Assembly (NCBI GenBank): GCA_021162365.1
Contig: JAGGYW010000003.1
Span: 1-33,970 of the forward strand
Length of the DNA: 33,970 nucleotides
Origin: Nanobdellota archaeon
GTDB lineage: Archaea; Nanobdellota; Nanobdellia; CSSed11-243R1
Reading direction: 5' to 3'
Positions 3,913-33,513 of this stretch are shown here, in pieces; the stretch's first letter is position 1, and every line of letters starts with the position of its first letter. Both the position numbers and the translations under genes were made by a program. The notes below the pieces were generated by a model. That model made no database searches. It was not told the origin of the DNA and saw nothing but the letters and a program-made list of their open reading frames with translations.

Positions 3913-4145
3913 TCAGCGAGCGCACCCGAGGCAGGTCCTTCCTCCCCCAGGAAGGACCGCCCTCCCTTCCAGCCTTTGTGAAAGAGCTGGTAGAAAAGGA
4001 GAAATCACAAAATCCGAACTTTCCGTTAACGCTTTGCGCGTAGCGGAAAGGGTTATCATGCTCTCATCCTAGAGAGCACCCCTTTGCCCTTTGGCCCGGC
4101 TGTAGACTAGTTCTCACCCCAGATTGGCCGGGCGGGGCATCATAA
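3913..4145. ncRNA. GC-rich structured intergenic region, candidate ncRNA of unknown class
   Basis: Strongly GC-rich against an AT-rich background, with many hairpins: GGTCCTTCC/GGAAGGACC, CCAGC/GCTGG, GCTCTC/GAGAGC, GCCCGGC/GCCGGGC, CCGCCC/GGGCGG. Minus strand favoured because the embedded element lies in that sense. Confidence 0.55.
4017..4055 (-). repeat. Mirror/triplex hairpin element, divergent copy E1
   Basis: Minus strand TAA-CC-CTTTC..CAAAG-CG-TTA-ACG-GAAAG. Linker CGTTAACG; TAA/TTA complementary. Confidence 0.55.
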
Positions 4146-4592
4146 TTATTCGATGTTTACTCTTCGGAATTTGCTCCAATATTTATCAAAGTCTGTATCA
4201 TAGAAAATATCCTCAATTTGGATGTTCCCACTTTCTTTTACGATTAGTGGAGATTCGTATTTTTTAGATCCATTTTCATAGGTACTCATTAATTCTTCTA
4301 TAGTTCTTTTAATTGCATTTCTTAGATCCTCCTTTACAACTAGATCTAATTCGGCCTTTAACGCGTCGCTTCTTTCTGCAAGGTTGGGTAGAGCTAGCTC
4401 AAGCCAATTGATTAAGTCTTCTTCATTTATGGACTTTTTATCATACTGGTTTTTGTATACTGTGGCGAGGACCACCTTACTTAATTCTCTATAGGATATG
4501 TTTGTCCTATAAACTAATTCTTTTTCTATACTTGGTGGGATTTTTCCATATAATTCAAACACTAAATCTTCATCCATAATTTCACCTTCCAA
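4146..4592 (-). CDS. Hypothetical protein, co-oriented with the SWIM gene
   Basis: 148-aa ORF overlapping the end of the upstream ORF. Confidence 0.7.
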   Translation of the reverse strand: MEGEIMDEDLVFELYGKIPPSIEKELVYRTNISYRELSKVVLATVYKNQYDKKSINEEDLINWLELALPNLAERSDALKAELDLVVKEDLRNAIKRTIEELMSTYENGSKKYESPLIVKESGNIQIEDIFYDTDFDKYWSKFRRVNIE

Positions 4593-5646
4593 TTATCCAT
4601 CTTAGTTCGCTTTTGTCAGGGTATTTTAATTCGAACGTTTTGTAAACTCGCATGCGCCTGCGGAGAGGATCTCTACCATAACCGACATTTCTTCCGAATT
4701 TTCTAATTATTTCATCTCTGGACATTCCATCTACATATGTTACTTTCATTACACTGACTGTTCCTTCATCTATGTTGGGCATAATTCTCAAATCTGTATC
4801 TTTATCAATTGAATAGTTCCAATAGCAGTTGCCGTCAAATTCCTTTGCAATTCCTTCTCTTTTGTAGCCCATCTCTAAAAGGTTCTTTCTAATTTTCCAC
4901 ATTTTAATCCCTAATCCGTCTGGATATTCTTCTTTCTTTTTCGAGCAGGTGAATATAACCCTACCATCATCTACGAGGTCTTCTAAATGGGGGGACAAGA
5001 TATCTCTTCTCATGAGCTCTTTATCTATATTGAAAAGTTTTCTTCCATCTATGTATCTGCTTTTAACTACATATGCAGCGAGATCTTCATCTACAACAAA
5101 AGGCAAAAATATCTCCCCTTTAAGCATTGGCTTACATTCTTTTAGGGATTCATGTCCGCTGTATAGCGCGTATAATGCGGCGGCCGCGTGGGCACAGCAA
5201 ACTTTCCTGTTTGTAAATTCGCCTAAGCCTTTGTAAAGTGAATCTTTGCAGTTGCAGCTTATATCAAATGTGTCCTGAAGTTTTCCATCTAAAAGCTGAG
5301 CTCCCTTTACCATAACTGTGTAAGATGCTATTCTGTTTTTGTTTTCATCACTTCTTCCCCCATGCCTTCTTGAGTTGACAATAACAATCCCAACTGTTCC
5401 GCCAACATCCCCCTTTTGTATGCCTCTTCTATTTGTTAATTTTTTACTTCCTTTTACTTTCATAACTTCTTTTTCAAGCTCAGAGTAGTCGTAGTTATTC
5501 CTTTCAAAAATTTCTTTTTTCTCTTCAGGGGGCATTCCAAGAAATATTCCTTCGTAGAAAGTCGAGGGCTGGAAGAATATTCTTTTCCTGTCGTTGAATA
5601 TAATTTCGGGTCCAAATCCGTTTGGGATTATTCCATAAGTAATCAT
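4582..5646 (-). CDS. SWIM-type zinc finger domain protein
   Basis: CNCKDSLYKGLGEFTNRKVCCAHAAAALY (CxC...CxH). Confidence 0.6.
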   Translation of the reverse strand: MITYGIIPNGFGPEIIFNDRKRIFFQPSTFYEGIFLGMPPEEKKEIFERNNYDYSELEKEVMKVKGSKKLTNRRGIQKGDVGGTVGIVIVNSRRHGGRSDENKNRIASYTVMVKGAQLLDGKLQDTFDISCNCKDSLYKGLGEFTNRKVCCAHAAAALYALYSGHESLKECKPMLKGEIFLPFVVDEDLAAYVVKSRYIDGRKLFNIDKELMRRDILSPHLEDLVDDGRVIFTCSKKKEEYPDGLGIKMWKIRKNLLEMGYKREGIAKEFDGNCYWNYSIDKDTDLRIMPNIDEGTVSVMKVTYVDGMSRDEIIRKFGRNVGYGRDPLRRRMRVYKTFELKYPDKSELRWIIGR

Positions 5647-5707
5647 GTTATCACTAAAAAGTTAGTTATTTATATCAATTATGCCAAACCAAAACATTTA
5701 TAAATAG

Positions 5708-5727
5708 TAACTACTATAAGGTAGTTA
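5708..5727. promoter_or_regulatory. Palindromic operator candidate
   Basis: TAACTAC-TATAAG-GTAGTTA, perfect 7-bp arms, next to TTTATAAATA. Confidence 0.6.
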
Positions 5728-5797
5728 AAATAAGTATGCCGAATGGTAATGCTTATAAAGCAGATCAAACATCTGCAAAACTCCGCGAGGTGAAAAA

Positions 5798-6106
5798 ATG
5801 GCAATAAAAATATTTGGAAGATATTCATTGAATATGGAGGATAATCCCAAAGTAGGGGAAGTTGTTGAGGGTAAAATGTCTATTTATAATTCTGAAGCAA
5901 AAGTTGGTCCAAAAGATGTTGGGCTTAACGTTGGGAGAATTCCTTATGCTATAGCGAGAGGGCAGAAAGTTTCAATTGAAGATATTGTGGAAACAAAAAT
6001 GCCTACAACTGGAGCGAGAGTTACACATAGCTATAGCCCAATTGGGAACATTTACAGGCTGATGAGAGACATAATGGAAAATCCCGAGAAGTATAAACAA
6101 AGGTAA
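5798..6106 (+). CDS. Hypothetical protein
   Basis: 102-aa ORF with SD-like GAGGTGA upstream. Confidence 0.7.
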   Translation: MAIKIFGRYSLNMEDNPKVGEVVEGKMSIYNSEAKVGPKDVGLNVGRIPYAIARGQKVSIEDIVETKMPTTGARVTHSYSPIGNIYRLMRDIMENPEKYKQR

Positions 6107-6109
6107 ATT

Positions 6110-6147
6110 GCACTTTTTCTTTGTGAAAGAAAACCTGCACTAAAGGA
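6110..6147 (+). repeat. Mirror/triplex hairpin element, degenerate R2, copy E2
   Basis: GCA-CT-TTTTCTTT-GTG-AAAGAAAA-CC-TGC-ACT-AAAGGA. Confidence 0.6.
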
Positions 6148-6167
6148 CTAAATTAATAAACCGCTTA

Positions 6168-6201
6168 GCACCTTCTTAGAAAGAAGCTGCACCAAGAAAG
6201 A
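6168..6201 (+). repeat. Mirror/triplex hairpin element, copy E3
   Basis: GCA-CC-TTCTT-AGA-AAGAA-GC-TGC-ACC-AAGAAAGA. R2 AAGAAAGA is the mirror of AGAAAGAA. Confidence 0.75.
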
Positions 6202-6236
6202 CTAAATTAATAAACTGCTTATTCTTTTATTTTTGT

Positions 6237-7514
6237 ATGGCTAAGGCAGGAGATTTAGTTGAGATTGTCACAAAAGACAAAAAGTACCGCGGCATTTTGA
6301 TGCCGAAGCCAGAAATTTTAAAGAGTAATTCAATTGTCATCAAGCTTGATTCTGGGTACAACGTTGGGATCGACAAAAAGAAAATAAAGAAAATAAAAGT
6401 TATCAAGAAGGCAAAGCCAAAGAAAGAAAAAAAGAAAAAAATAAAGCAAAACAAAAAGCTCCCGACTGTTTCAATCCTTTCGACTGGGGGAACTATTTCT
6501 TCGAAAGTTGACTATACTACTGGTGGTACTTATGCTTCTTTGACTGCAGAAGATTTTGTTGAGCTTGAGCCAAAACTTTTGAAGTTTGCGAACATCCGCG
6601 CAAAAAGAATCCTCCAGCTTATGAGTGAAGATGTAAATCCAGATGATTGGATTAAGATTGCAAAAGAGATTTACAGGGAATTAAACAAAAAAGATGTTAC
6701 TGGAGTTGTAGTAACTCACGGCACAGACACTTTGCACTACACTGCATCCATACTTTCTTTTATGTTTCCAAAACTTTCAAAGCCAATTGTTTTAGTTGGA
6801 GCGCAGCGCTCTACAGATAGAGGGAGCAGCGATACCTTCATGAATTTGATTTGCTCTGTTATATCTGCAACACAAAATATTGGAGAAGTTCTTGTTTGCA
6901 TGCATGCAACCCCAAATGATGATTTTTGCTATCTGCATCGTGCAACAAAGGTAAGGAAAATGCACACAAGCAGAAGAGATGCTTTTCGTTCAATAAATCA
7001 ATTTCCAATAGCAAAGGTTTTTCCAGATGGTAGAATTGAAATTCTAGTTGACTACAAAAAACCGGATGAAAAAACAGAATTAGATGTGAAAATTGACAAA
7101 AAGGTGGCTCTTGTTTATGTTTATCCTGGGATGGATCCAAAGATTTTAGATTACTATGCTAAGAAAAAATATCACGGTATTGTCTTAATGGGAACTGGGC
7201 TCGGACATGTACCGACGAACGGCAAGCTTTCCTTAATTCCAAAAATAAAATCAATGATTAAAAAAGGGATTGCTGTTTGCATAACCTCGCAGTGTCTTTA
7301 TGGCAGAACTCATGAGTTTGTGTATTCAAACTTAAGGAAGCTTGAAAGTGTGGGCGCCATCTTTTGCGAGGATATGCTTCCTGAAACTGCTTATACAAAA
7401 TTAATGTTTGTTTTGGGAAAGACAAGAAAGCTTGAGAAGGTAAAAGAATTGATGCAAAAGAATTTGAGGGGAGAAATAAACAAAACCCTGAGCGTTAAAA
7501 TGTTTATGAATTAG
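6237..7514 (+). CDS. gatD: Glu-tRNA(Gln) amidotransferase subunit D
   Basis: Asparaginase-like STGGTISSKVDYTTGG and VVTHGTDTLHYTA with N-terminal extension; gatE downstream. Confidence 0.92.
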   Translation: MAKAGDLVEIVTKDKKYRGILMPKPEILKSNSIVIKLDSGYNVGIDKKKIKKIKVIKKAKPKKEKKKKIKQNKKLPTVSILSTGGTISSKVDYTTGGTYASLTAEDFVELEPKLLKFANIRAKRILQLMSEDVNPDDWIKIAKEIYRELNKKDVTGVVVTHGTDTLHYTASILSFMFPKLSKPIVLVGAQRSTDRGSSDTFMNLICSVISATQNIGEVLVCMHATPNDDFCYLHRATKVRKMHTSRRDAFRSINQFPIAKVFPDGRIEILVDYKKPDEKTELDVKIDKKVALVYVYPGMDPKILDYYAKKKYHGIVLMGTGLGHVPTNGKLSLIPKIKSMIKKGIAVCITSQCLYGRTHEFVYSNLRKLESVGAIFCEDMLPETAYTKLMFVLGKTRKLEKVKELMQKNLRGEINKTLSVKMFMN

Positions 7515-7522
7515 GTGGTAGT

Positions 7523-7891
7523 ATGACTCATTTGGTTGTTTATGTTCCAAAAGCAGATGGAAAATCAATAGATGATTTGTTCCCCGAAGATGTTTTGGAT
7601 AAGATCCCCACAAAAAATGAAATAGAGTTAATTGAGGAGCAAAACGGTTACACTTTAAGAACAAATATGGGTGATCTCCCTGAAAGAGACAGGCTTCGGA
7701 TTGCACTTGCCAATTTGGATGTTCACCTTGGTAAGCTTGGGATTACAGAGTATAGATTATGGGTGAGTGTTAATGTGCTTCAGTTGAATGGCGTATTTTA
7801 TCGTGCTTCTCAGGGAGAAGATGTAAATGGAAAAATAGAATCTGAATTAGATAAGGTGTATAACTTTGGACTACAAAAAAATTGGACTTAA
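7523..7891 (+). CDS. Hypothetical protein between gatD and gatE
   Basis: 122-aa ORF, 9 bp after gatD, overlapping the gatE start. Confidence 0.75.
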   Translation: MTHLVVYVPKADGKSIDDLFPEDVLDKIPTKNEIELIEEQNGYTLRTNMGDLPERDRLRIALANLDVHLGKLGITEYRLWVSVNVLQLNGVFYRASQGEDVNGKIESELDKVYNFGLQKNWT

Positions 7892-9728
7892 GTGTGGACT
7901 TGAAATTCACCAGCAGCTGGATACTCACAAGCTTTTTTGTAGCTGTCCCTCTATTTTGAGAGATGATTCTCCTCATTTTGAAGTGCGAAGAAAATTGAAA
8001 GCTCTTGCTGGAGAGTTAGGGAAAGTTGATGTTGCAGCAAAAGCAGAAGAAAAAAGAGAAAAGACATACATCTATCAAGGTTATAATGATACCACCTGTC
8101 TCGTTGAATTAGATGAAGAACCACCCCACAAACTGAATGAAGAGGCGCTTGAAATTGCCCTTCAAATTGCACTTTTACTTAACATGAAGCCGTTTGATGA
8201 AATCCAGATAATGAGGAAAACAGTTGTTGATGGATCAAATACTTCGGGATTTCAGAGAACCGCACTAATCGCAGAAGATGGATATATTGAAACTTCGCAG
8301 GGGAAAGTTAGGGTGAATATGATTGCCCTCGAAGAAGATTCTGCAAGAAGGATAAGCGAAACTCCAAATTCTGTCACCTTTAGATTGGATAGATTGGGAA
8401 TCCCTCTTGTTGAATTAAGAACAGAACCTGACATTTTCACGCCGCAAATGGCAAAAGAAGCGGCAGAGAGAATTGGCTTGCTAATGAGGATGACTGGCAA
8501 GGTAAAAAGGGGAATAGGCACAATTCGCCAGGATGTCAATATTTCTATTAAAGGCGGAACAAGAGTTGAGATAAAGGGAGTACAAGATTTGCGTGAGATT
8601 CCAAAGATGATTGATTTGGAAATCGAAAGGCAGCAAAACCTGATTGAAATTTCAAAGAAGCTTAAGCAGAGGAAGCCGAGGTTTGAAAAGAAGTTTTATG
8701 ACATAAAGAAAATTTTTGAGAAAACAAATTCCAACTTAATAAAAAAGGCAATTGAAAGGGAAGACGACATAATTGCTGTTAAAGTTTCTGGATTTAACGG
8801 ATTATTGAAGAAGAAAATTCAGGGAGAAAAACATCTTGCCCGCGACATAGTTGAATATGTTAAACACTTTACGGGACTTCGTGGATTCATTCATTCAGAT
8901 GAGTTACCTAATTATGGCATCTCAGAGAATGAAGTTTTCCAAATCAGGAAATTTTTAGGTTGTAAAAACGAAGATGCGTTTGCCTTTGTTATTGCAGAAA
9001 GAGAGTTGGCGGAAAAAGCTCTTTCACACTTGATTGATAGATGTCAGCAATATCTTAGGGGAGTTCCAAAGGATGTTAGGGATGTAAGTGATGATGGCAC
9101 AACAAGATTTCTTCGTCCAATGCCAGGTGCTGCAAGAATGTATCCAGAAACGGATGAAATTCCGGTTCCAATTTCAAAAGAGCTGTTAAAGAAAATAAAA
9201 GTCCCTCCAACGCCTGAGGAAAGACTAAAGAGATTCAAGAAGTGGGGGCTTTCCGACGATTTGGCAAAACAAATCTTGCATAGTCCAGAGTTGGTTACAT
9301 TTGAGGAGCTTGTTGCGAAATTCAAAAACATTTCACCAACAATTATTGCAGCAACCCTTGTTTCCACAAGGGATGAAATAAGAAGAAGATATGACTTGGA
9401 TACCTCTGCAATTGAAAAACATCATTTTGAGGAGACTTTTGAGTTGTTAAACAAAGGAAAGATAGCAAAGGAGGCAATTGTTGAAATCCTTGCCCACTTG
9501 GCAGCAAAGCCACAAATGACTGCTGAGGAGGTTATGAAAAAGCTAAAACTTCAAAAAATTTCTATTCGTGAATTGCGAAAAATAATTTCAAAAGTCCTTG
9601 AAGAGAATGAAAAGCTTGCAAAAGAAAAGCAGTTTGGAATTCTGATGGGCTTTGTCATGAGAAAAGTCCGCGGGAGAATCGACGGCGAAATTGTTGCAAA
9701 TGAACTGAAAAAGAAATTAAAGAATTAA
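7866..9728 (+). CDS. gatE: Glu-tRNA(Gln) amidotransferase subunit E
   Basis: GLKCGLEIHQQLDTHKLFCSCPS, RQDVNISIKGGTRVEIKGVQ, C-terminal YqeY-like region. TTG start. Confidence 0.95.
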   Translation: MDYKKIGLKCGLEIHQQLDTHKLFCSCPSILRDDSPHFEVRRKLKALAGELGKVDVAAKAEEKREKTYIYQGYNDTTCLVELDEEPPHKLNEEALEIALQIALLLNMKPFDEIQIMRKTVVDGSNTSGFQRTALIAEDGYIETSQGKVRVNMIALEEDSARRISETPNSVTFRLDRLGIPLVELRTEPDIFTPQMAKEAAERIGLLMRMTGKVKRGIGTIRQDVNISIKGGTRVEIKGVQDLREIPKMIDLEIERQQNLIEISKKLKQRKPRFEKKFYDIKKIFEKTNSNLIKKAIEREDDIIAVKVSGFNGLLKKKIQGEKHLARDIVEYVKHFTGLRGFIHSDELPNYGISENEVFQIRKFLGCKNEDAFAFVIAERELAEKALSHLIDRCQQYLRGVPKDVRDVSDDGTTRFLRPMPGAARMYPETDEIPVPISKELLKKIKVPPTPEERLKRFKKWGLSDDLAKQILHSPELVTFEELVAKFKNISPTIIAATLVSTRDEIRRRYDLDTSAIEKHHFEETFELLNKGKIAKEAIVEILAHLAAKPQMTAEEVMKKLKLQKISIRELRKIISKVLEENEKLAKEKQFGILMGFVMRKVRGRIDGEIVANELKKKLKN

Positions 9729-9734
9729 AAAAGG

Positions 9735-10883: not shown

Positions 10884-10886
10884 TTT

Positions 10887-10906
10887 ATACCACCTTAAAG
10901 TAGTAA
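10887..10906. promoter_or_regulatory. Operator candidate
   Basis: ATACCAC-CTTAAA-GTAGTAA between TATA and start codon of the 9735-10883 gene. Confidence 0.5.
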
Positions 10907-10952: not shown

Positions 10953-11687
10953 ATGAAAGCCTTTTTAGAAAAAAGCCTTGGGAAAAAGTGGAGTGTGATT
11001 GGGTTAAACAAATATGAAAGCGCAGTTTATGATGCGATAGTAAAAATTGGAAAGGGAACTGCTGCGAGAATAGCAAAAACAAGTGGTGTCCCCTACGGAA
11101 GAATTTACGATGTCCTTGACTCGCTTATTTCAAAGAATTTGGTGAGGATAATCCCTGGCAAGCCAAGAACATACTCAATTGCAAATCCGCAAATAATAGA
11201 GAAAATGCTAAAGGAGAAAGAAAAAGAATTTGAAGAAATTGAAAAAGAGATAAAAAAGCTCAAGAGAATATACGAGAGTGCTCCTGAAGAAGCGGTTTTA
11301 GTTGCAACAGGGAAAAGAGCATGGTATGAACTAGTAAGAGAATTGAAGAGCCCGCCAAAAAAATTTAGTTACAAAATAAGATATACAGCAGAATATCACC
11401 CAGAGTGGGTTAGGGAAGAAAGACGAGAGATAAAAAAAGGAGTTGATGTCAAAGCCTTTGTCAGGTATGATGAAGAAACAAAACAAAATGTGAAGAAATG
11501 GCTGAAGCACACAAAAAACATTAGAGCATATCCAAACAAAGGAGTTGCCTTTTGGATTGCCGATGACTTTGTTTTAATTGCCTTAATAAAATCAAACGCC
11601 ACAGTTTTGATAAGAGACAAAGCATTTGTTGACATGCTAAAGCATTTATTTGAAGATGCCTACAAGAATGCAAAGGTGATAAAGTGA
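10953..11687 (+). CDS. TrmB-family transcriptional regulator
   Basis: LNKYESAVYDAIVKIGKGTAARIAKTSGVPYGRIYDVLDSLISKNLV. Confidence 0.85.
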   Translation: MKAFLEKSLGKKWSVIGLNKYESAVYDAIVKIGKGTAARIAKTSGVPYGRIYDVLDSLISKNLVRIIPGKPRTYSIANPQIIEKMLKEKEKEFEEIEKEIKKLKRIYESAPEEAVLVATGKRAWYELVRELKSPPKKFSYKIRYTAEYHPEWVREERREIKKGVDVKAFVRYDEETKQNVKKWLKHTKNIRAYPNKGVAFWIADDFVLIALIKSNATVLIRDKAFVDMLKHLFEDAYKNAKVIK

Positions 11688-17461: not shown

Positions 17462-17496
17462 TAAACTTTTCTTAGAAAGAAAACTTTACCGAAGAA
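17462..17496 (+). repeat. Mirror/triplex hairpin element, degenerate R2, copy E4
   Basis: TAA-AC-TTTTCTT-AGA-AAGAAAA-CT-TTA-CCG-AAGAA. Confidence 0.55.
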
Positions 17497-17597: not shown

Positions 17598-18863
17598 GAG
17601 TTTGTTGAAATTGGAGAGATTTTAGATGGAAAACATACAGGCGAGAAGGTCGCAATTCGTGGCTGGGTTTACAGAGAGAGGAAGCAAAAGACAGTTTCCT
17701 TCTTTTTAATTAGGGATGACTCCGGAATTATCCAGACGGCAATTAAGCCAGATTCTAAGTTTTGGGATGAAGCCCAGAAGTTGACAATTGAATCCTCTGT
17801 AAAGATTTGGGGAATAGTCAAGGAAGACAAGAGAGCCCCCGGCGGATATGAAATTCAGATAGAGAAACTTGAAATTGTCGGGTTGGCAGAAAGATTTCCA
17901 ATTACAAAAGACAAAAGTGAGGAATTTCTGAGAGATGTCAGACATTTATGGATTCGCAGCAGAAGAATGACTTTAATTTTCAAGGTTCGCAGCGCCGTTT
18001 TTGAAGCCATTCACGAATTTTACAAGCAGAAAGGATATTATGAAATTCAGGCACCAAGCTTTACCGGCTCTGCCTGCGAGGGTGGCTCTACATTATTTGA
18101 AGTGAAATACTTTGACAAAAAGGCGTATTTGACCCAGTCATGGCAGCTTTATGCTGAAGCAATGATATTTTCTTTGCAGAGAATTTACACTATTGCTCCA
18201 AGCTTTAGGGCTGAAAAAAGCAGAACAAGAAGACACCTCGCGGAATACTGGCATCATGAAATGGAAACTGCTTGGATGCAGTTTGAGGAGCTTTTGAAAT
18301 TCGAGGAGGAGTTCATAGCATTCGTGGCACACTATGTTGCAGAAAAATGTGAAAAAGAATTGAAAGAGCTTGGGAGGGATGTTGAAGAACTAAAAAAATT
18401 AAAGCCGCCGTTTAAGAGAATGAAATACGAAGAAGCAATTAAAAAGCTTGGAAAGGAATGGGGATACGATCTAACGGATGCAGATGAGAGAAAGCTTGTA
18501 GCAGAAATTGGAGCGCCAGTTTTTATAACTCACTTCCCGCGAGAGATGAAAGCATTTTACATGAGGCCTGACCCAAAAGACAAAAAAGTTGTGCTGGCAG
18601 CTGACTTGTTGATACCTGGCGTTGGGGAGACAACAGGTGGCAGCGAAAGAATTTATGACTTAAAGGAGTTGGAGGAATCACTAAAACTTTTCAAGCTTGA
18701 CAAAAAGGATTATGAATGGTATCTTGACTTAAGAAGGTATGGAACAATACCTCATTCCGGTTTCGGACTTGGAATTGAGAGATTAGTTATGTGGCTTTCA
18801 GGAGCAGAGCACATAATGGAAACAATTCCGTTCCCAAGGACAATTACAAGGTTATACCCATAG
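17598..18863 (+). CDS. asnS: Asparaginyl-tRNA synthetase
   Basis: Class II aaRS (GSACEGGSTLFEVKYF, SFRAEKSRTRRHLAEYWHHEMETAW, GFGLGIERLVMWLSG). Start refined to MEFVEIGEI from the 17544 track start. Confidence 0.9.
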   Translation, partial: EFVEIGEILDGKHTGEKVAIRGWVYRERKQKTVSFFLIRDDSGIIQTAIKPDSKFWDEAQKLTIESSVKIWGIVKEDKRAPGGYEIQIEKLEIVGLAERFPITKDKSEEFLRDVRHLWIRSRRMTLIFKVRSAVFEAIHEFYKQKGYYEIQAPSFTGSACEGGSTLFEVKYFDKKAYLTQSWQLYAEAMIFSLQRIYTIAPSFRAEKSRTRRHLAEYWHHEMETAWMQFEELLKFEEEFIAFVAHYVAEKCEKELKELGRDVEELKKLKPPFKRMKYEEAIKKLGKEWGYDLTDADERKLVAEIGAPVFITHFPREMKAFYMRPDPKDKKVVLAADLLIPGVGETTGGSERIYDLKELEESLKLFKLDKKDYEWYLDLRRYGTIPHSGFGLGIERLVMWLSGAEHIMETIPFPRTITRLYP

Positions 18864-18896
18864 CACCTTTTTAGGAAAAAGCTGCACCAAAAAGGA
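18863..18896 (+). repeat. Mirror/triplex hairpin element, copy E5
   Basis: GCA-CC-TTTTT-AGG-AAAAA-GC-TGC-ACC-AAAAAGGA. R2 AAAAAGGA mirrors AGGAAAAA. Confidence 0.75.
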
Positions 18897-23130: not shown

Positions 23131-23197
23131 AAATAGTAAAGCTTTTAATATATTTATATTATTTTCTAACTTGTGCTTTAGTGCTCCCATAGTCTAG

Positions 23198-23234
23198 GAA
23201 CCCTTTCTTGGGAAGAAAGCGTTCACGGAAAGAA
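23198..23234 (+). repeat. Mirror/triplex hairpin element E6, D-loop intron
   Basis: GAA-CC-CTTTCTT-GGG-AAGAAAG-CG-TTC-ACG-GAAAGAA. Confidence 0.85.
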
Positions 23235-23280
23235 CCAAGAAGGGGATGGACAATCCGGTCAAGGATGCTGGACTCTCGCA

Positions 23281-23317
23281 ACACCCTTTCTTTCCAAGAA
23301 AGCGTGCACGGAAAGAA
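23281..23317 (+). repeat. Mirror/triplex hairpin element E7, anticodon-loop intron
   Basis: ACA-CC-CTTTCTT-TCC-AAGAAAG-CG-TGC-ACG-GAAAGAA; one A.C mismatch in the 3-bp helix. Confidence 0.85.
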
Positions 23318-23352
23318 CTTCCGTGGTGTTGGGGATATCCAGTGACCCGGGT

Positions 23353-23694
23353 TCAAATCCCGGTGGGAGCACTTTTATTTCTATATTCCCTCCTTGTCTC
23401 CTCAAGAATTCTTTCCAATTTTGATTTTGGTGTAAAAATTAATTTTATTGTTGATTTTGATAAGAGAGCATAATATACCGCTTCTGCGTAATAATTTTCC
23501 CACTTCTCTGAAACTTCTCTCAAGGAATTTTCAATTAGTTCTTCTCTAATGTGGAACTCATGAATATCTCCGTTTGGAATTATTTCTTCAACTGGAACAC
23601 AATTGCTGTTCATGTAAAGTCTGTATTTTAGATTGGCAATTGTAACTGCAACGCGTCTTTTGTATTCAAGCCAATCGTAAATTTTTTTCATCAT
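23353..23694 (-). CDS. Hypothetical protein ending antisense inside tRNA-Glu
   Basis: MMKKIYDWLEYKRRVAV...SAPTGI*; ATGA overlap with the MFS stop. Confidence 0.65.
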   Translation of the reverse strand: MMKKIYDWLEYKRRVAVTIANLKYRLYMNSNCVPVEEIIPNGDIHEFHIREELIENSLREVSEKWENYYAEAVYYALLSKSTIKLIFTPKSKLERILEETRREYRNKSAPTGI

Positions 23695-25713: not shown

Positions 25714-25775
25714 TTCTTTTTTCGCTACTTTTTTATACTACTTCTTTTTTGATGATTTTGTGCGGGGGTGCCGGA

Positions 25776-25820
25776 GAGCCTTTCTTTCTCGTGAGAAAGA
25801 AACCCTCGGGAAAGAAAGAG
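25776..25820 (+). repeat. Mirror/triplex hairpin element E8, D-loop intron
   Basis: GAG-CC-TTTCTTTCTC-GT-GAGAAAGAAA-CC-CTC-GGG-AAAGAAAGAG. 10/10 mirror R1/R2. Confidence 0.88.
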
Positions 25821-25850
25821 CACGGTACGGTCAAACGGGCCAGGCTTAGG

Positions 25851-25887
25851 CGACCTTTTCTTAAAAAGAAAAGCTCGACCAAAAGAA
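25851..25887 (+). repeat. Mirror/triplex hairpin element E9, anticodon-loop intron
   Basis: CGA-CC-TTTTCTT-AAA-AAGAAAA-GC-TCG-ACC-AAAAGAA. Confidence 0.85.
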
Positions 25888-25962
25888 GAGGTCGTGGATA
25901 CCTGGTGGGTTAGAGCCGCTGTGCCTTTTGGCACTTGGTGACCAATCCCTGCGGGAGTTCGA

Positions 25963-25999
25963 ACACCCTTTCTTTCCAAGAAAGCGTGTACGGAAAGAA
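25963..25999 (+). repeat. Mirror/triplex hairpin element E10, T-loop intron
   Basis: ACA-CC-CTTTCTT-TCC-AAGAAAG-CG-TGT-ACG-GAAAGAA. Confidence 0.87.
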
Positions 26000-26026
26000 A
26001 GCAGGTCGAAAGTCTCCTCCCCCGCA

Positions 26027-26587
26027 CTACACATTGACATAATAGATCGTTAGAAGTCCATCAATTTCTTCTTTGAATATTTCTGCGCCCTCTCTATAAT
26101 TTGCGTGAGGATCCCTTATATGCAAACTTGCTCTTTTTAGCCATTGAATGAATGTCTTTGGGTATCTTAACTTACCCGTTGTTGGGTATACCTCAGTGTG
26201 GACTTCTACTCTATAACACTTTTCTCCGTGATTTGTTTTGTCCTTCCACATTCTTGCGTGAATTCTTCTTCCATCCCTGATTGCTTTTGCGGCCACAATG
26301 TCTTCTCCAAAGTCATACTCGGGTATTACCCCATCTCCAAGGGATTCAGCAGACAGAAAAGGATGTGTGAAATCTTTTATATCTACAGCATAGCCAAGCG
26401 ATTTTAATATATCATAAACTTTGTATACATCTCTTTCTATTTCGAGGTGTGGCTCTTCTTTGTGGTATTTGTGCTTTAACTTTGCAACTACCTCTCGCGG
26501 TGTAAGGATTGCTGCGTCTAACTTTTCAAGGATTCTTACAAGCCCCGAAGATCTTACTTTCATTTCAATTTCCTTTTCTAAGCCCAT
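26027..26587 (-). CDS. Hypothetical protein abutting the tRNA-Leu 3' end
   Basis: 186-aa ORF; TATA, operator TAACTAC-TAAGGA-GTTGTTA, then ATG. Confidence 0.75.
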   Translation of the reverse strand: MGLEKEIEMKVRSSGLVRILEKLDAAILTPREVVAKLKHKYHKEEPHLEIERDVYKVYDILKSLGYAVDIKDFTHPFLSAESLGDGVIPEYDFGEDIVAAKAIRDGRRIHARMWKDKTNHGEKCYRVEVHTEVYPTTGKLRYPKTFIQWLKRASLHIRDPHANYREGAEIFKEEIDGLLTIYYVNV

Positions 26588-26588
26588 G

Positions 26589-26608
26589 TAACTACTAAGG
26601 AGTTGTTA
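26589..26608. promoter_or_regulatory. Palindromic operator candidate
   Basis: TAACTAC-TAAGGA-GTTGTTA (6/7 symmetric). Confidence 0.55.
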
Positions 26609-26663
26609 ATTTATAAGCTTTTTTCTAGATATATTTTTAACTGCACAACGCCATGAATAATGT

Positions 26664-28940
26664 ATGTCGCTTGAAGGAATTGAGTCCCAACTAAGTAAAA
26701 ACATAGCTGTTTTGGAGCAGATATTTGCGAAACATGAAAAATTCTTGGAGAAATTAGGGTCTGCTATTGCTAAATACGTTGAGGTTGCAGATATTGCAAA
26801 GCCATTAGTTGAAGCTGCGGGTGCAGAGATAGAATCAAAGGGAAGAGCATCTAAAAGAACAGTATACGGAAGAGCTGGCATGTTTAAAGGAAAAAGGGGA
26901 AAAGGGCTTGTTCAGTACCTTGGTGAGAAAAGTTGGGCTTTAAGTACACTTATTCGTTTGGTTGGTGTTGAAAGAGCAGAAGCATCTGAGCAAGCACGAT
27001 ATCTGTACGCCACTTTAAGGGAAATAAATCTTGAAGAGAAAGCGGAAGAAGCAGAAGAAAAGAAATTACCCAAAAAGTTAAAAGCTAGGATAAAGAAAGT
27101 TGAAAAACTTACAAAAGAGTGTGAGAAAATATTAAACAAAGAAGCTGCGAGAGATAAGAAGTTAATTAGGATAACTGCGAAGGAGATCGCAGCTTTAAAC
27201 AACGCATACCATCTTTCTATGAAGGAAGGAATTTTTGCACGACGTCTTGTCAGATTTATTGGCGCGGCTAGGGCGCTGAAAAGATTAGATATCCTGTTCC
27301 AGAAGGAAGAAATCTTCTTTGCGAAGTTTATGAAAGAAGAAAATTGGATTGTGGATGATATTGCCAAAGACCTGAAAGGGATTTTCAAGTTAATAAAAGA
27401 TAATGAAAAAATTGAGAAGCTAATTAAGGGTTCTGCAGCCAAATTCAAAGGTGAGGAAAAACAAGCAAAGAAGGAAGAAAAGGTTTCTAAGAGAATAAAG
27501 AAGTTAATGAAATCGCTTGAGAGGATACAGAAACACTTAGCTAAGGTTAAGAAGGGCGCAGCAAAGTATGGGATTAAAGTTGAGAAATCTGTTGCAATGC
27601 TTGACGCTGAGGAGAAGGCGCTACTTAAGGAGGAAAAAGAAGAAGAAAAAGAATTAAGCGACATTGAAAAGTTGTTTGAAAACATGCAAAGATTTTCTTT
27701 AATGATCTCCCGTTTTGAGAATGCGATTTCTATTGCTGAAGTTAGGTTAGAGCCCCAAATTAAATGGATTAATACTGCTTTAATTTCTGCTTATAAAATT
27801 TCAAAGAAAAATCCTGCAGGGGTTACTTCCTTCCTTGGGAAAGTGGGTAATTTTGCAGAGAGGGCGTTGGTTCCAGCCCTTAAACATATAGACACAGAGA
27901 GACGGGAGTTGTTCAAGGAATTTATTGGCGAAGAGGGGATAATAAAGAGCCTGGAGAAAGACATGAATATGATGTACCAGCTCGAGAATAAAGGTTTTGT
28001 AAACGAGCTTAAGAAAATGGAGAAGAGCTTGGTGCAAATTGAGAAGAATGTGGTTGCAGGCAACAAAAAGGCAATTGCAGACCTAAAAAGAGATATAGCT
28101 GAGCTAAAACGTTCTTTGAAGGAAGAGAAAGAGATTGTTAAGGAAGAGTCTCAGGCTGGCGCTCCAAAAACAGCAGGTGAGGAAGCAGAAACTAGGGCAA
28201 AGATAGCGGAATTAAATAAAAGGATTTTGGAGTTGAAATCTAAGTTTAGGGATATGAAGAAGGAGTTTGATCCTGCTGTCAAGAAGTTTAAGCAAGCAAT
28301 TAAGGATGCCCCACACTTTAAGTTTGCCAAGAAAGGATTGTTTGGTATATTTGGCAAGAACATCGAAGATAGGATGATTAAAGATATCGAAATGGCAGAG
28401 CATTATTTGAGAGCAGAGGAAGGAGAGGATTCGAGAGAATTGCAAGCTCTTCGTGCATGGCTTTCAAATGTTGCTGAAATTGAAAATTATGTTAAATTCG
28501 TAGAAGCAGCATTCAAGTCGTTTGTTGATGAGGACAAGATGCTTAAGAAGATGATTTTCTTTTACAAGGATATAGCCTTGTTTGAAAAAGATTTCTCCAT
28601 GGAAGTTAGAAAGGCGGAGAGAACGATGACTGATTTGGAAGTTGCAGTTAGGGATTTAGAGGAAGTTATGAATAGGCACACTGATATGTTCGGCGAGGAA
28701 GAAAGGGAGTTATTCACGGAATTAAGGGAGATATACAACAACTCTATGATTCTGTTAAACGAATTGAAAAAGACAGAAAATGCATTAAAGGTATTTGCGC
28801 ATAACTTACCGCAAATGATGGGTGCAAGCAAGCGTGCGGAAGGACACATTAAGGAGATTGAGAAGCTTCTTAAGGAATCTGAGAAAAATGCAAAGAAGCT
28901 TAAGAAGATTACAGGGAAAGAAATCCAGGCAAAGCTATAG
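26664..28940 (+). CDS. Large coiled-coil protein of unknown function
   Basis: 758 aa, Lys/Glu/Ala-rich helices almost throughout. Confidence 0.8.
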   Translation: MSLEGIESQLSKNIAVLEQIFAKHEKFLEKLGSAIAKYVEVADIAKPLVEAAGAEIESKGRASKRTVYGRAGMFKGKRGKGLVQYLGEKSWALSTLIRLVGVERAEASEQARYLYATLREINLEEKAEEAEEKKLPKKLKARIKKVEKLTKECEKILNKEAARDKKLIRITAKEIAALNNAYHLSMKEGIFARRLVRFIGAARALKRLDILFQKEEIFFAKFMKEENWIVDDIAKDLKGIFKLIKDNEKIEKLIKGSAAKFKGEEKQAKKEEKVSKRIKKLMKSLERIQKHLAKVKKGAAKYGIKVEKSVAMLDAEEKALLKEEKEEEKELSDIEKLFENMQRFSLMISRFENAISIAEVRLEPQIKWINTALISAYKISKKNPAGVTSFLGKVGNFAERALVPALKHIDTERRELFKEFIGEEGIIKSLEKDMNMMYQLENKGFVNELKKMEKSLVQIEKNVVAGNKKAIADLKRDIAELKRSLKEEKEIVKEESQAGAPKTAGEEAETRAKIAELNKRILELKSKFRDMKKEFDPAVKKFKQAIKDAPHFKFAKKGLFGIFGKNIEDRMIKDIEMAEHYLRAEEGEDSRELQALRAWLSNVAEIENYVKFVEAAFKSFVDEDKMLKKMIFFYKDIALFEKDFSMEVRKAERTMTDLEVAVRDLEEVMNRHTDMFGEEERELFTELREIYNNSMILLNELKKTENALKVFAHNLPQMMGASKRAEGHIKEIEKLLKESEKNAKKLKKITGKEIQAKL

Positions 28941-28975
28941 TAAATTATTAAATTGCTGCTTTCTTTCAATTTTTG

Positions 28976-29572
28976 ATGGGAACTTATATTGAAAAGCTGA
29001 AGGATTTTGAGAAACAATTGGAAGTAAGAAAAGAAGGACCGACAATTACTGTTTCTGGGCTTTCTGGCTCTGGGAAGTCAACAATTGGTAAGGCAATTGC
29101 TAATGCGTTTGGATTAAAACTTAAAAGCATGGGCGACATTTTTCGTGAACTTGCAAAAGAAAAAGGGATTCCTATTGAGAAGTTTTCTAAGATTCGTAGC
29201 GAGGAAGTGGACATAGAATTAGACAAGAAAACCCTTGAGCTTGCAAAGAAAGGCAACATTGTTTTGATAGGTAGATTAACTGGTTGGGTTGCAGGCGACA
29301 ATGCGGATGTTAAGCTTTGGATTGATTGCGAGGATGAAGTCCGCTTTAGTAGAGTTGCTAAGCGTGAGGGGATTTCTGTTGAGGAAGCAAAGAAAAGAAT
29401 TCTTGAAAGAGACAGTGCCGATGCAAAAAGATATGAAGAACTTTATGGTGTTGATGTCAATGACAAAAGCATTTATGACATCTTGTTTGACAACACAACT
29501 GCAACTTACGAAGAAGCAATTACCAAACCTGTCGAAGCAATAAAAGAATTACTGGACACCACCTCAAATTAA
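28976..29572 (+). CDS. cmk: Cytidylate kinase, archaeal type
   Basis: ITVSGLSGSGKSTIGKAIANAFGLKLKSMGDIFRELA. Confidence 0.88.
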   Translation: MGTYIEKLKDFEKQLEVRKEGPTITVSGLSGSGKSTIGKAIANAFGLKLKSMGDIFRELAKEKGIPIEKFSKIRSEEVDIELDKKTLELAKKGNIVLIGRLTGWVAGDNADVKLWIDCEDEVRFSRVAKREGISVEEAKKRILERDSADAKRYEELYGVDVNDKSIYDILFDNTTATYEEAITKPVEAIKELLDTTSN

Positions 29573-29599
29573 ATAAATGCTCATTTTCTTTTTTTATCT

Positions 29600-30193
29600 A
29601 TGATTGAGTTTTCAAAAGATAGTATCCGGCTGAATCGACCATTGACGAAGTTAGATATATTTGTGATAAAGTTTCTATCAATTTTAGATAGTAACGACAT
29701 AAATTATGTTTTGGTTTCAGGTTATGTTCCTATACTTTTTGGTAGGACAAGAATGACTGAAGATGTAGATGTGCTAACAGAGAAACTTAGTTTTGATAAA
29801 TTTAAAGAGTTAGTGAGTAAAATATTAGAAAATGGCTTCTGGTGTTTGAATACTAATGACATCAATGAGATGTATGATATGTTAATTAAGGGTTTGTCTG
29901 TTAGATTCTCCAAAAAAGATGAAGTTATTCCAAATATTGAGATGAGGTTCATTAAAACAGAGATAGATAAGTATGCAATTAAAAATAAAGTGAAAGTGAA
30001 ATTGGAGAAGCACTTTGTTGTGGTATCACCGCTCGAGCTCCAAATTGCATATAAACTTTTCTTGGGTTCTGATAAAGATATAGAAGATGCACGGTATTTA
30101 TTCAAACTATTTGAAGAGCATTTAAATAAGCAAAAGATTAATGAATTTGCACGGATTTTAAATGTTACCGATAAGGTGAAATATCTTGAGTGA
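29600..30193 (+). CDS. Nucleotidyltransferase-fold protein (AbiEii/MNT-like)
   Basis: YVLVSGYVPILFGRTRMTEDVDVLTE and VSPLELQIAYKLFLGSDKDIEDARYLFKL. Confidence 0.7.
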   Translation: MIEFSKDSIRLNRPLTKLDIFVIKFLSILDSNDINYVLVSGYVPILFGRTRMTEDVDVLTEKLSFDKFKELVSKILENGFWCLNTNDINEMYDMLIKGLSVRFSKKDEVIPNIEMRFIKTEIDKYAIKNKVKVKLEKHFVVVSPLELQIAYKLFLGSDKDIEDARYLFKLFEEHLNKQKINEFARILNVTDKVKYLE

Positions 30194-30335
30194 CCTATTG
30201 CGAGAATTAAGGAAACAGAAAAAAATAAACTTCAGGGAGCGACTAAAGTTTATTGATATGTGGGTTGATTTTGTAAAAAAACATCCAAAAAAAAGTGGCA
30301 AGCAATACAAGAGTTTCATAGATAGCTTTTTCTGA
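30186..30335 (+). CDS. 49-aa basic helical protein translationally coupled to the NTase
   Basis: TTG start overlapping the TGA; LSDLLRELRKQKKINFRERLKFIDMWVDFVKKHPKKSGKQYKSFIDSFF*. Absent from the track. Confidence 0.6.
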   Translation: MSDLLRELRKQKKINFRERLKFIDMWVDFVKKHPKKSGKQYKSFIDSFF

Positions 30336-30346
30336 GGTAATTTGCA

Positions 30347-31558
30347 ATGGTAGCTCCTGCGAATCTTTGTGTTATATGTAAGGGTGGAAAGCATCTTTGT
30401 GGTGTTAATCCATGCCCGCTTTTAGCTAAATTTAATGTTAAGCAAAAGTTGGAAATTGGCAGGGAATTTTCCGGACCATCAACTTCTGTTTTTGTCGGGC
30501 ATTCAAATTATCCAAATGTTTTTGTTGGTCCAATTGGTGCAATTGAAAACGAGAATTTAGTTGACAATCCTGCCAAGTGGTTTGGCATGGAATACAGCAA
30601 AATAATTGAAATGCGTTCTCTAACTATTCGCTCAAAGGCAGTTCAGAATGTTAAATCAAAAAATAGATTTGTTGAAGAAAATCAGCTTCTGGCTATGTCA
30701 AAAAAGCCAACAGATGTTGACCTGAAATTTCTGAAAAAGCCGAATTTTAAAGTCAGCTTCTCTGATGTAACTCAACCTATGGGTCCTTCTGCTCCAATTG
30801 AAAAAATGAAAATTGTTGAAAATCCGAAAATACCACATAAAGTCGATAAGGTCGTTGATGATGAATTAAAGGCAGTTGAGCAGGTAAATGTTCTTTACAA
30901 AAATTTTGATATTTATTACATAACAAACATTTTCACAAGCGGGGCTCTTGGGAAGTATGAAAATCAAAAGCTAGTTCCAACCAGGTGGAGCATAACAGCA
31001 GTTGATGACATTTTAGCTAAAGAGATGATGAAAAGAATTCGCGAATATCCTGAAGTAAATTCCTACTTCGTTTATGAGTCAAAATATCTCGACAATCACT
31101 TTGTTATTCTTTTGATGCCTGGTAGGTGGGAGTATGAAAATTTTGAAGCGTGGGCTCTAGGCTCTTCTTGGGCACAACAGGCAAAAGAAACTTTCTTTTT
31201 GGAAGAATACGAGCCATTTGAAGGAAGGAAAACTTATGCGGATAAGGAAGGTGGAGGATATTATGCTGCCCGCTTTGCCGTATGCGAAGCTCTTGACAAA
31301 ATGAAGAGACAGGCGAGAGTAATTGTTTTTAGGGAAATATCTGAAGGATACATAGTTCCCCTTGGTGTTTGGCAGGTTAGAGAAAATGTAAGGAATGCAA
31401 TGAAATCAGATCCTAAAAAGTTCCAAACCCTTGGTGAAGCCCTTTCATATATAAACTCAAAGCTTAGCATCCCGATTTCTAGATACAAGCAGCAAAGTAG
31501 AATTTTGCAGCAGAAGAGCCTTTTTGACTTCGCCGAAAGATTTAAAAATACTACTTGA
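30347..31558 (+). CDS. Nre-family archaeal DNA repair protein
   Basis: CVICKGGKHLCGVNPCPLLAKF zinc-binding N-terminus; C-terminal PIP-box-like QQKSLFDFAERF. Confidence 0.85.
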   Translation: MVAPANLCVICKGGKHLCGVNPCPLLAKFNVKQKLEIGREFSGPSTSVFVGHSNYPNVFVGPIGAIENENLVDNPAKWFGMEYSKIIEMRSLTIRSKAVQNVKSKNRFVEENQLLAMSKKPTDVDLKFLKKPNFKVSFSDVTQPMGPSAPIEKMKIVENPKIPHKVDKVVDDELKAVEQVNVLYKNFDIYYITNIFTSGALGKYENQKLVPTRWSITAVDDILAKEMMKRIREYPEVNSYFVYESKYLDNHFVILLMPGRWEYENFEAWALGSSWAQQAKETFFLEEYEPFEGRKTYADKEGGGYYAARFAVCEALDKMKRQARVIVFREISEGYIVPLGVWQVRENVRNAMKSDPKKFQTLGEALSYINSKLSIPISRYKQQSRILQQKSLFDFAERFKNTT

Positions 31559-31567
31559 GGGTAGTTG
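31548..31567. promoter_or_regulatory. Operator candidate
   Basis: TTTAAAAATACTAC-TTGAGG-GTAGTTG straddling the nre stop, before ATG 31572. Confidence 0.5.
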
Positions 31568-31571
31568 CTTT

Positions 31572-32117
31572 ATGGGATTGGTTGATGAATTAAGCGATTT
31601 GTTTGGAAATAAGGAAACTATAGATACTGTGATGGAGCTAGGCTCAGTTTTCACAAAGTTAGATTTGTTTGCATTAGCTGGAAGAGCTGCAGTTGATATG
31701 CACTTGGAAAATAGTTTAGGAGAGTATAAAATGATTGAGCTTTTATCGACTTGTGATAAAGTTAATTCTGCTGTCAATGAATTGCGGTCTAATGGGTATA
31801 AAATAAAATCTGTTACAAGAGGAAATTCATCCTATGAAGTTGAACTTCAGAAGGGGGTCAAACTTCCAGTTAGAATATATGCATATGATTGCTTGCCAAA
31901 TGTGTTAAAAGATGCAGAAAAAAAGATGATCACAAATGGGAGTGCAGCTTACGACGTGATTCTTGCATCACCCGAAGATATTTTCTTGATTGGATTGCTC
32001 CATGACAAAACATATAATCCTCTTATGTCCAAGGTTGACAGGAAAAAGGCATATGAGAAATATATGCGATTTCCGGAAGAGCTAAAAGAAAAAATGAATT
32101 GGAAGTTTAAGCAGTAG
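31572..32117 (+). CDS. Hypothetical protein, possible degenerate NTase fold
   Basis: MGLVDELSDLFGNKETIDTVMEL...FALAGRAAVDMHL...VILASPEDIFLIGLLHDK. Start refined from 31524. Confidence 0.65.
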   Translation: MGLVDELSDLFGNKETIDTVMELGSVFTKLDLFALAGRAAVDMHLENSLGEYKMIELLSTCDKVNSAVNELRSNGYKIKSVTRGNSSYEVELQKGVKLPVRIYAYDCLPNVLKDAEKKMITNGSAAYDVILASPEDIFLIGLLHDKTYNPLMSKVDRKKAYEKYMRFPEELKEKMNWKFKQ

Positions 32118-33117
32118 CAAGAAGTTCTTCATTTAATACTCCATTTTTATAAACTGTTATTTCTTCCCCTTTGTCGTTACGTGCTATTATTGTTGCATTA
32201 TAAAGCAAGTAATCCTCGTGATCATTACAGGCGTAAATTGAACCAAATTCTGTGCTTGGTCCTCTTGCAATGTGTGGGCCGTGTTTTTCACTTTCAAGAA
32301 TTTTAGATTTAGGATCTGCATTCACATTAAATCCAAGACCCAACTCCCCAATAATATCGTTGTATTCTATTTTTCCAATTTCATCGCTGAGCAGCTTTTC
32401 CAGCTCTTTGTTCTCACTTTCAATTTTTACAACTCTCCCCCTTTTCCATGTGACAATTACGGGCTTTGTCAATAGGTGTTCGCCCGCCCTGCTGTAGGCA
32501 CACATTTCGCCATTTGCAGAATCTTCAAGGGGGCCGATGAATATTTCTCCTGCTGGCAGGTTTCCGAACCCCCTTTCCGCCACAGTTAAATCGTCAAGCC
32601 ATCTTCTTCCGTCTGTGCGCAGAGTCATCTTATACTCTCCGTTTTCACCTGTAATTATTTCAAATTCGGTGTAGTCCTTTAGAACTTCTTTGAGCTTTAT
32701 TGCCTTCTTTTTCATTTCATTATAATCTATATCAAACGGACCTCCCTCTCTTAGCATTTCTTCAGTTATGCCCGGGCAGTGTGCTATTCTTCCAATTTCT
32801 TCAAGCTTTGTTAGAAGTTTAATTCTCATCGGCCTCTCGTCAGAATAAGCTTCAAACAAAGTAATTGTTAAACTTGGATTTAATTCACCAATAACTTGGT
32901 TTAGGTCTTCTGGTATCTCTTTTAGGGGTCTTTTATAGTCGTCTAAATAAAATCTCCTTAGAGTGCCGTCGAAATCGCTGTTGAGAATTGCCCTTTCAAA
33001 TTTTTCCACTACACCTTCTTTGCTTCTATCCATTATTATGAGAATGCTTCCTGCATTTTTAATGTCATAAATTGCTTCTAATGCACTTTCTAATCCAGAT
33101 ATTACTCCCATATGCAC
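32107..33117 (-). CDS. M29-like aminopeptidase family protein
   Basis: FGNLPAGEIFIGPLEDSANGE..ELGLGFNVNADPKSKILESEKHGPHIARGPS. Confidence 0.65.
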   Translation of the reverse strand: MHMGVISGLESALEAIYDIKNAGSILIIMDRSKEGVVEKFERAILNSDFDGTLRRFYLDDYKRPLKEIPEDLNQVIGELNPSLTITLFEAYSDERPMRIKLLTKLEEIGRIAHCPGITEEMLREGGPFDIDYNEMKKKAIKLKEVLKDYTEFEIITGENGEYKMTLRTDGRRWLDDLTVAERGFGNLPAGEIFIGPLEDSANGEMCAYSRAGEHLLTKPVIVTWKRGRVVKIESENKELEKLLSDEIGKIEYNDIIGELGLGFNVNADPKSKILESEKHGPHIARGPSTEFGSIYACNDHEDYLLYNATIIARNDKGEEITVYKNGVLNEELLATA

Positions 33118-33172
33118 CCCTAATTACTATGAAGCAGTAACTAATTTATATGTGTTGTTATTTTATGAATTG

Positions 33173-33406
33173 ATGATAGTTGAAGTTAAAGTTGTTCCAA
33201 AATCGTCTAAAATTTCTGTAGAGAAAAAGAACGGTAAACTTCATGTGAAACTTACTGCTCCTCCGGAGAAAGGAAAAGCAAACAAGCAACTAGTTGAAGT
33301 TTTAGCTGAGCATTTTGGAGTTAGTAAATCAAAAGTTAAAATTTTAAAGGGGGAAACATCTCATAATAAGGTAGTTGAAATCCGCCTAGATGCCTCGGTG
33401 GCGTAG
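33173..33406 (+). CDS. DUF167 family protein
   Basis: MIVEVKVVPKSSKISVEKKNGKLHVKLTAPPEKGKANKQLVEVLAEHFGVSKSKVKILKGETSHNKVVEI. Confidence 0.9.
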   Translation: MIVEVKVVPKSSKISVEKKNGKLHVKLTAPPEKGKANKQLVEVLAEHFGVSKSKVKILKGETSHNKVVEIRLDASVA

Positions 33407-33513
33407 CTGGTAGCGCACCTGCTTGGTAAAACCCTTTCTTAAAAAGAAAGCGTTTACGGAAAGAAGGGGCTCCTGAGAGCAGGAGGTCGTGGGTTCGAAT
33501 CCCACCCGGGGCT
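33392..33513 (+). tRNA. tRNA-Thr(GGT) with one anticodon-loop intron
   Basis: GCCTCGG/CCGGGGC, CCTGC-TTGGTA|A-GCAGG, GTGGGTTCGAATCCCAC. Intron 33429-33477 (49 nt) leaves a 73-nt mature tRNA. Confidence 0.93.
33429..33465 (+). repeat. Mirror/triplex hairpin element E11, anticodon-loop intron
   Basis: AAA-CC-CTTTCTT-AAA-AAGAAAG-CG-TTT-ACG-GAAAGAA. Confidence 0.88.

Follow-up and report, generated by a model that had tools for sequence, protein, structure and literature searches.

A dispersed archaeal repeat with a mirrored third strand, a candidate intrastrand DNA triplex element, in RNA genes, protein genes, and intergenic DNA

The locus and the repeated unit

The analyzed stretch of DNA, herein referred to as the window, comprises 33,970 nucleotides of a Nanobdellota archaeon (contig JAGGYW010000003.1, assembly GCA_021162365.1). 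It is contig C8 among the 22 contigs of the source genome (G000; 722,724 bp). The window carries about 12 copies of a short repeated element, located in three tRNA genes, in intergenic regions, and at the borders of reading frames (Table 1). In this element, a pyrimidine arm (Y), its Watson-Crick complement (R1), and a second purine strand (R2) follow one another on a single strand, and this strand could fold as an intrastrand triple helix.

The unit consists of an outer helix of 3-4 bp (NNN/N'N'N'), a C-rich switch of one or two layers, a Y-R1 stem of 4-11 bp, a tiny loop, a tight linker, and R2, with a total length of about 31-60 nt. R2 repeats the purine strand of the stem in reverse order, i.e., as a mirror, and, with few exceptions, 8 nt separate R1 from R2. 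The mirror spans the whole stem at every stem length, with a maximum of 11/11 (TTTTCTTTCTT/AAGAAAGAAAA/AAAAGAAAGAA). Each layer can be written as the bases of the 5' strand (x), the middle strand (y), and the third strand (z). In the stem, the layers read (T,A,A) or (C,G,G), with z = y; the innermost layer of the outer helix mostly reads (A,T,A) or (G,C,G), with z = x; and the switch layers between them are (C,C,G), (C,G,C), (C,C,C), or (T,C,T). The third-strand base is mostly the purine of the Watson-Crick pair, which appears to be what an alternate-strand purine-motif triplex would require. The following junction classes were found: CC/GC/ACC, CC/CG/ACG, CT/CC/ACT, GC/CC/AGG, CC/CC/GGG, and GC/GC/AGC. 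Between species, the junction class switches as one unit.

A reading of the window made from the sequence only had proposed an eleven-copy family. All the copies it named were found at their places with minor redefinition, including copy 1 (its E1), which runs from 4055 down to 4019 on the minus strand and has a long loop of 11 nt. The number was an undercount: the copies at 10957 and 17463 had not been clearly listed, a degenerate copy lies at 6110-6149, and the genome-wide numbers are much larger (see below). Rfam covariance models, applied to the window at the gathering score, gave tRNA-Thr as the sole match and no family for the element. ARAGORN found no tRNA in the raw window, as expected if introns break up the tRNA genes.

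Table 1. Copies of the element and the tRNA genes containing them in the window
Feature	Position	Strand	Sequence layout	Context and basis
Copy 1, long-loop type	4019..4055	-	TAA CC CTTT-(11)-AAAG CG TTA ACG GAAAG	Direct reading
Degenerate copy	6110..6149	+	GCA CT TTTTCTTT gtg AAAGAAAA CC TGC ACT AAAGGACT	Mirror broken; few nt past stop codon; direct reading
Copy	6168..6198	+	GCA CC TTCTT aga AAGAA GC TGC ACC AAGAA	Intergenic; descriptor scans
Copy	10957..10987	+	AAG CC TTTTT aga AAAAA GC CTT GGG AAAAA	In frame as MKAFLEKSLGKK, start of open reading frame; relaxed scan; short stem, chance possible
Copy	17463..17496	+	AAA CT TTTCTT aga AAGAAA AC TTT ACC GAAGAA	Intergenic; one mirror mismatch; relaxed scan
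Copy	18863..18893	+	GCA CC TTTTT agg AAAAA GC TGC ACC AAAAA	Begins within stop codon of asparaginyl-tRNA synthetase-like gene
tRNA-Glu gene	23183..23371	+		Two element introns (D-loop, anticodon loop); tRNA rebuilt by excision
Copy	23198..23234	+	GAA CC CTTTCTT ggg AAGAAAG CG TTC ACG GAAAGAA	tRNA-Glu D-loop intron
Copy	23281..23317	+	ACA CC CTTTCTT tcc AAGAAAG CG TGC ACG GAAAGAA	tRNA-Glu anticodon intron; near-miss outer helix
tRNA-Leu gene	25762..26026	+		Three element introns; tRNA rebuilt by excision
Copy	25776..25820	+	GAG CC TTTCTTTCTC gt GAGAAAGAAA CC CTC GGG AAAGAAAGAG	tRNA-Leu; 10/10 mirror
Copy	25851..25887	+	CGA CC TTTTCTT aaa AAGAAAA GC TCG ACC AAAAGAA	tRNA-Leu anticodon-loop intron
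Copy	25963..25999	+	ACA CC CTTTCTT tcc AAGAAAG CG TGT ACG GAAAGAA	tRNA-Leu T-loop intron
tRNA-Thr(GGT) gene	33392..33513	+		One element intron; Rfam RF00005, 56.4 bits
Copy	33429..33465	+	AAA CC CTTTCTT aaa AAGAAAG CG TTT ACG GAAAGAA	tRNA-Thr intron

On the minus strand, positions 3900-4141 form an unannotated, structured-looking intergenic RNA candidate that contains the long-loop copy and has no Rfam match. Positions 6100-6220 represent a two-copy version of a 77-bp tandem repeat found at another locus (L218, 4676-4830), the unit of which is a CT-class element plus a spacer.

Census, third-strand fidelity, and same-site comparison

Descriptor scans covered G000 in full and almost the whole of G001, a genome of the same genus (684 kb). 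In total, 106 copies in G000 and 99 in G001 were found with the relaxed descriptor; the strict one gave about 75 distinct places in G000. Stems of at least 6 bp with the outer 3-bp helix and a perfect mirror were found at 76 places in the genome, as compared to none in eight block-wise dinucleotide shuffles. This comparison had been suggested, for this genome and its relatives, together with the sequence-only reading. The outcomes that would speak against the family, namely no excess of mirrors or an R2 matching as a direct repeat or at random, are excluded by the genome scan. CC-type elements number 69 in the genome, and none is left when the genome is reversed without being complemented.

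A 6/6 mirror of R1 lies exactly 8 nt downstream of R1 in 54 of the 378 pyrimidine-arm hairpins of the genome. In the same test, spacers other than 8 nt give 0-7 mirrors, a direct repeat instead of a mirror is found in 10 hairpins, and shuffling of the tails between hairpins gives a mean of 9 and a maximum of 14 mirrors. Both the 8-nt linker and the mirror orientation of R2 noticed in the window hold genome-wide, and the geometry is the one needed for an antiparallel purine third strand. R2 as a direct repeat or a complement of R1 was rejected, the direct-repeat matches being near background. For the same reason, the re-pairing of R2 with Y, proposed earlier as a competing fold, is not the conserved feature; a competing fold does exist for NNNCC, which has a second partner, GGN'N'N'.

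Elements picked by stem, mirror, and junction only have Watson-Crick pairs at 347 of their 351 outer-helix positions, in agreement with the covariation seen in the window. Of the 124 elements picked by outer helix and stem only, 113 carry a perfect R2 mirror. Over all sets, a stem A is mirrored by A in R2 in 1,041 of 1,054 cases and a stem G by G in 261 of 269; these counts were made on the distinct sequences of G000 and G001 and of further archaea, with the count of the second set influenced by the pattern used to fetch its loci. The fidelity of the third strand is as strict as that of Watson-Crick pairing.

Pairs of G000 and G001 elements with a common left flank number 51, which is an upper bound on true orthologues, because similar flanks cause some tRNAs that are not the same to be paired. 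In 40 of these pairs, both stem and R2 have changed, and nearly all of these elements fit themselves perfectly. At the second site in the 23S rRNA gene, one stem column is altered in all three strands (TTTCTCTT/AAAGAGAA vs. TTTTTCTT/AAAAAGAA), and the junction class changes alongside the stem, from GC..ACC to CG..ACG. Stem lengths also differ in orthologous pairs (L049/L226, 11 vs. 8; L034/L192, 6 vs. 9). The intron at the same kind of site in the tRNA-Thr gene of G001 reads TGA CC TTTCTTT gga AAAGAAA GC TCA ACC AAAGAAA. These comparisons show that the three strands change together at the same sites in two species. Gain and loss of copies at orthologous sites are shown as well. The first 23S rRNA site contains a sense-antisense pair in G000 that is missing in G001, and the site of the 18863 copy has only GCACC-AAAAA in G001.

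Copies in RNA genes and elsewhere in archaeal genomes

Excision of the copies by bulge-helix-bulge (BHB) cuts rebuilds 24 tRNA genes with 45 element introns in G000 and 20 tRNA genes with 36 element introns in G001, the isotype calls being imperfect for some of the rebuilt genes and rough for those with several introns. These copies are located at BHB-type sites in the D, anticodon, variable, and T regions, i.e., the same sites that are occupied by known archaeal BHB tRNA introns, including the transposed introns of Thermoproteales. Among the copies of the element, excision yields a tRNA only for those in tRNA genes, and the known BHB introns are not known to share a three-strand unit of which copies are found beyond RNA genes. 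One gene for the splicing endonuclease EndA was found in each of the two genomes. NNNCC pairs with the distal GGN'N'N' to form the BHB inner helix, so that two folds compete for NNN; the inner helices of element introns contain 69 G-U among 505 pairs (loose count). A strict BHB without tRNA context was found in 82 of 205 cases vs. 47 in the control, and this weakly discriminating test was set aside as proof of splicing. In 23S rRNA genes, the copies form facing pairs.

The original focus on tRNA introns was too narrow, since copies are also found in 23S rRNA genes, at start and stop codons, in intergenic DNA, and in protein genes, across many archaeal phyla. About 118 matching stretches were found across archaea, and all the matches listed are archaeal; the hosts include ANME-1, other Methanomicrobia, Aenigmatarchaeota, Altiarchaeota, and others. 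Intergenic copies in many archaea are solitary or form facing pairs and are sometimes nested, and both orientations occur beside and within genes. In three related ANME-1 genomes (L113, L122, and L126), an antisense copy ends exactly at the ATG of hisH; two of these loci also have an extra antisense CT-class element and an adjoining half element. An in-frame element, VSFGKAFLSKKRF, was found in an AsnB-like gene of G280 and G289, and is missing in G288 (about 89% protein identity). The purL gene contains an in-frame element in the close genomes G281, G303, G304, and G307 and lacks it in G280 and others. In G304 (L245), the coding frame of purL contains tandem CAAACTTT..AAAGTTTGATCAAAA elements, which represent a class with a fully paired junction. 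In Methanosuratincola (L107, 6474), a copy lies between a tRNA-Thr gene, directly upstream, and an integrase-like reading frame.

No description of this element family was found in the open-access literature. The potential intrastrand triplex (PIT) elements of bacteria, named as a precedent in the sequence-only reading, are indeed relevant. Together with BoxC and TM_ECO, they are bacterial intrastrand triplex repeats (Hoyne and Maher; Holder et al., 2015; PMC4666352). Like PIT and TM_ECO, the archaeal element is interspersed and multicopy and has the order Y-loop-R1-linker-R2 on a single strand, with purine-motif antiparallel geometry, R1 being complementary to Y and R2 mirroring R1 (perfectly in the 113 elements mentioned above). 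Its second linker of 8 nt exceeds the loops of 1-6 nt for which ITxF searched. Whereas TM_ECO is one G/C-rich sequence (consensus CCCTCNCCC N3-6 GGGNGAGGG N3 GGGNGAGGG) with a 3-nt second loop, the archaeal element is A/T-rich and sequence-variable, has an outer helix and a junction code, and, unlike PIT and TM_ECO, occurs in introns of archaeal RNA genes and in coding genes. The recurrent repeats of Methanomicrobiaceae are also interspersed and could form an intramolecular antiparallel triplex (PMC8044849), but they are G-rich, have the order R2-R1-Y and a 3' C-run, and show no outer helix and no reported link to tRNA introns. Insertion in frame into protein genes, at sites where homologues lack the element (PurL and AsnB-like genes), is shared with the short hairpin elements known as Rickettsia palindromic elements (Ogata, 2000, 2002; PMC10969869) and with similar organelle hairpins. 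The Rickettsia elements differ in their length of about 150 bp, their sequence families, and their unrelated host, and no mirror third strand is reported for them. By analogy, the archaeal element may work like PIT/TM repeats combined with Rickettsia palindromic elements, fitting neither definition.

The triplex reading and its rivals

Triplex-forming genomic repeats have been proposed for decades, with sequence potential and oligonucleotide chemistry as the evidence so far. Many divergent copies with a position-by-position match of three strands provide comparative evidence of selection on a three-strand fold. We know of no earlier comparative evidence for the conservation of a built-in triple-strand fold by cells. 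The family also supplies hundreds of natural variants for testing.

We give about an even chance to the reading that this is a dispersed archaeal DNA element, in which the selected object is a Y-R-R intrastrand DNA triplex and which spreads as a selfish hairpin. One strand would form a purine-motif triplex (A.A-T and G.G-C) and the other a pyrimidine-motif triplex (T.A-T/C+.G-C), each when the strand is single. The hairpin would be recognized by structure, not by sequence. Its copies would persist between genes and, read in frame, within protein genes; those in RNA genes would survive because the splicing endonuclease removes them. Mobility is probable, judging by the presence and absence of copies at sites and by their spread. 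We propose only tentatively that the element is structure-recognized selfish DNA, widespread in Archaea, whose mobile form is the intrastrand triple helix and which creates tRNA and rRNA introns on landing in RNA genes. Such a selfish intron-maker would be a counterpart of eukaryotic introners. The family also offers a specific origin for the burst of non-canonical tRNA introns that some small archaea show, a problem of long standing.

Several points weigh against a selfish DNA triplex. Low stability is to be expected of purine-motif triplexes rich in A, and the copies, unlike ordinary miniature inverted-repeat transposable elements, differ yet stay perfect without decay. No consistent target-site duplication was found around the elements: direct repeats of at least 7 nt flank them in 9 and 7 cases, only slightly above the 3 and 3 in controls. 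A duplication-like case, GCTCCCAT[..]GCTCCCAT, was found in a tRNA-Glu gene of G001. No match to the Y1 (HUH) transposase (PF01797) was found in G000-G004, and an IS200/IS605-type transposase (or RAYT/REP) was rejected as the driver because of this absence. Finally, all copies in tRNA genes are sense, including every solitary one, and 34 of 329 elements begin between -3 and +4 nt relative to a sense-gene stop codon; both findings hint at a role in RNA.

These last findings belong to the main rival, an RNA-level triple helix, which we regard as possible but doubtful. Here, transcripts would fold as Y-R-R and would stabilize or time intron splicing or protect the 3' ends that follow stop codons or tRNAs. 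The sense lean of solo intergenic copies (25 vs. 12) and the precise geometry also fit it. However, G-U is not preferred over other mismatches in the local helices: among about 1,880 pairs, only 4 of the 24 deviations are G-U (3 outer, 1 stem), the others being 6 outer and 14 stem mismatches, in contrast to the loosely counted 69 G-U of 505 pairs in the BHB inner helices of the same introns. Antisense copies inside genes and directly before an ATG, as at hisH, speak against an RNA role as well, and RNA is reported to be unable to build purine-motif helices (Semerad and Maher, 1994, as cited in PMC4666352). Because G-U is not preferred, both orientations occur in transcripts, and RNA is reportedly excluded from purine-motif triplexes, action at the DNA level appears favored.

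A protein that recognizes the hairpin and R2 on DNA or RNA, with the mirror rule reflecting protein contacts and not base triples, would agree with structure being kept more than sequence, but it is an unlikely explanation: the mirror follows every stem base over lengths of 4-11, and protein contacts would hardly produce such a match. Integron integrases recognize attC hairpins, and the element starts near stop codons recall attC. Tyrosine recombinases are present in G000, including a second one that might serve such recognition; this second recombinase has no linkage to the copies and no cassette array was found, and the integron-like explanation was rejected. It is very improbable that the copies are ordinary archaeal tRNA introns sharing a common nucleus through intron transposition, with no wider meaning. 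Identical T-loop introns do occur in several tRNAs, and introns are known to transpose in Thermoproteales (Fujishima, 2010, as cited in PMC3293823), but two findings already contradict this as the full explanation: distant archaea carry copies in intergenic DNA, in rRNA, and in protein genes, and same-site introns of different sequence keep the three-way fit. We give the least credence to R2 as a by-product of low-complexity purine runs, R2-Y alternative pairing, or hairpin-correcting replication errors. R2 is A-rich, some tails are able to pair with Y, and quasi-palindrome correction could account for the absence of G-U in stems. This explanation is already contradicted by the near-background direct-repeat matches, the empty shuffles, and the faithful tracking of G. 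We know of no copying that yields a parallel complement.

Two further observations concern tRNA genes. Several of them carry a repeated hairpin of another type, CCGCCTTCTTTagaAAAGAAGGTAGGTTGCCAAGAAA, in which the spacer is 11 nt and R2 is a mirror (L054 ~3780, L023 ~17590, and L032 ~19800). Additionally, direct repeats of 8-9 nt that look like target-site duplications flank element insertions close to the 5' ends of three tRNA genes, namely those for tRNA-Glu and tRNA-Leu and one other (L217 7090-7330; L214 1790-2200; L054 ~3720-3800).

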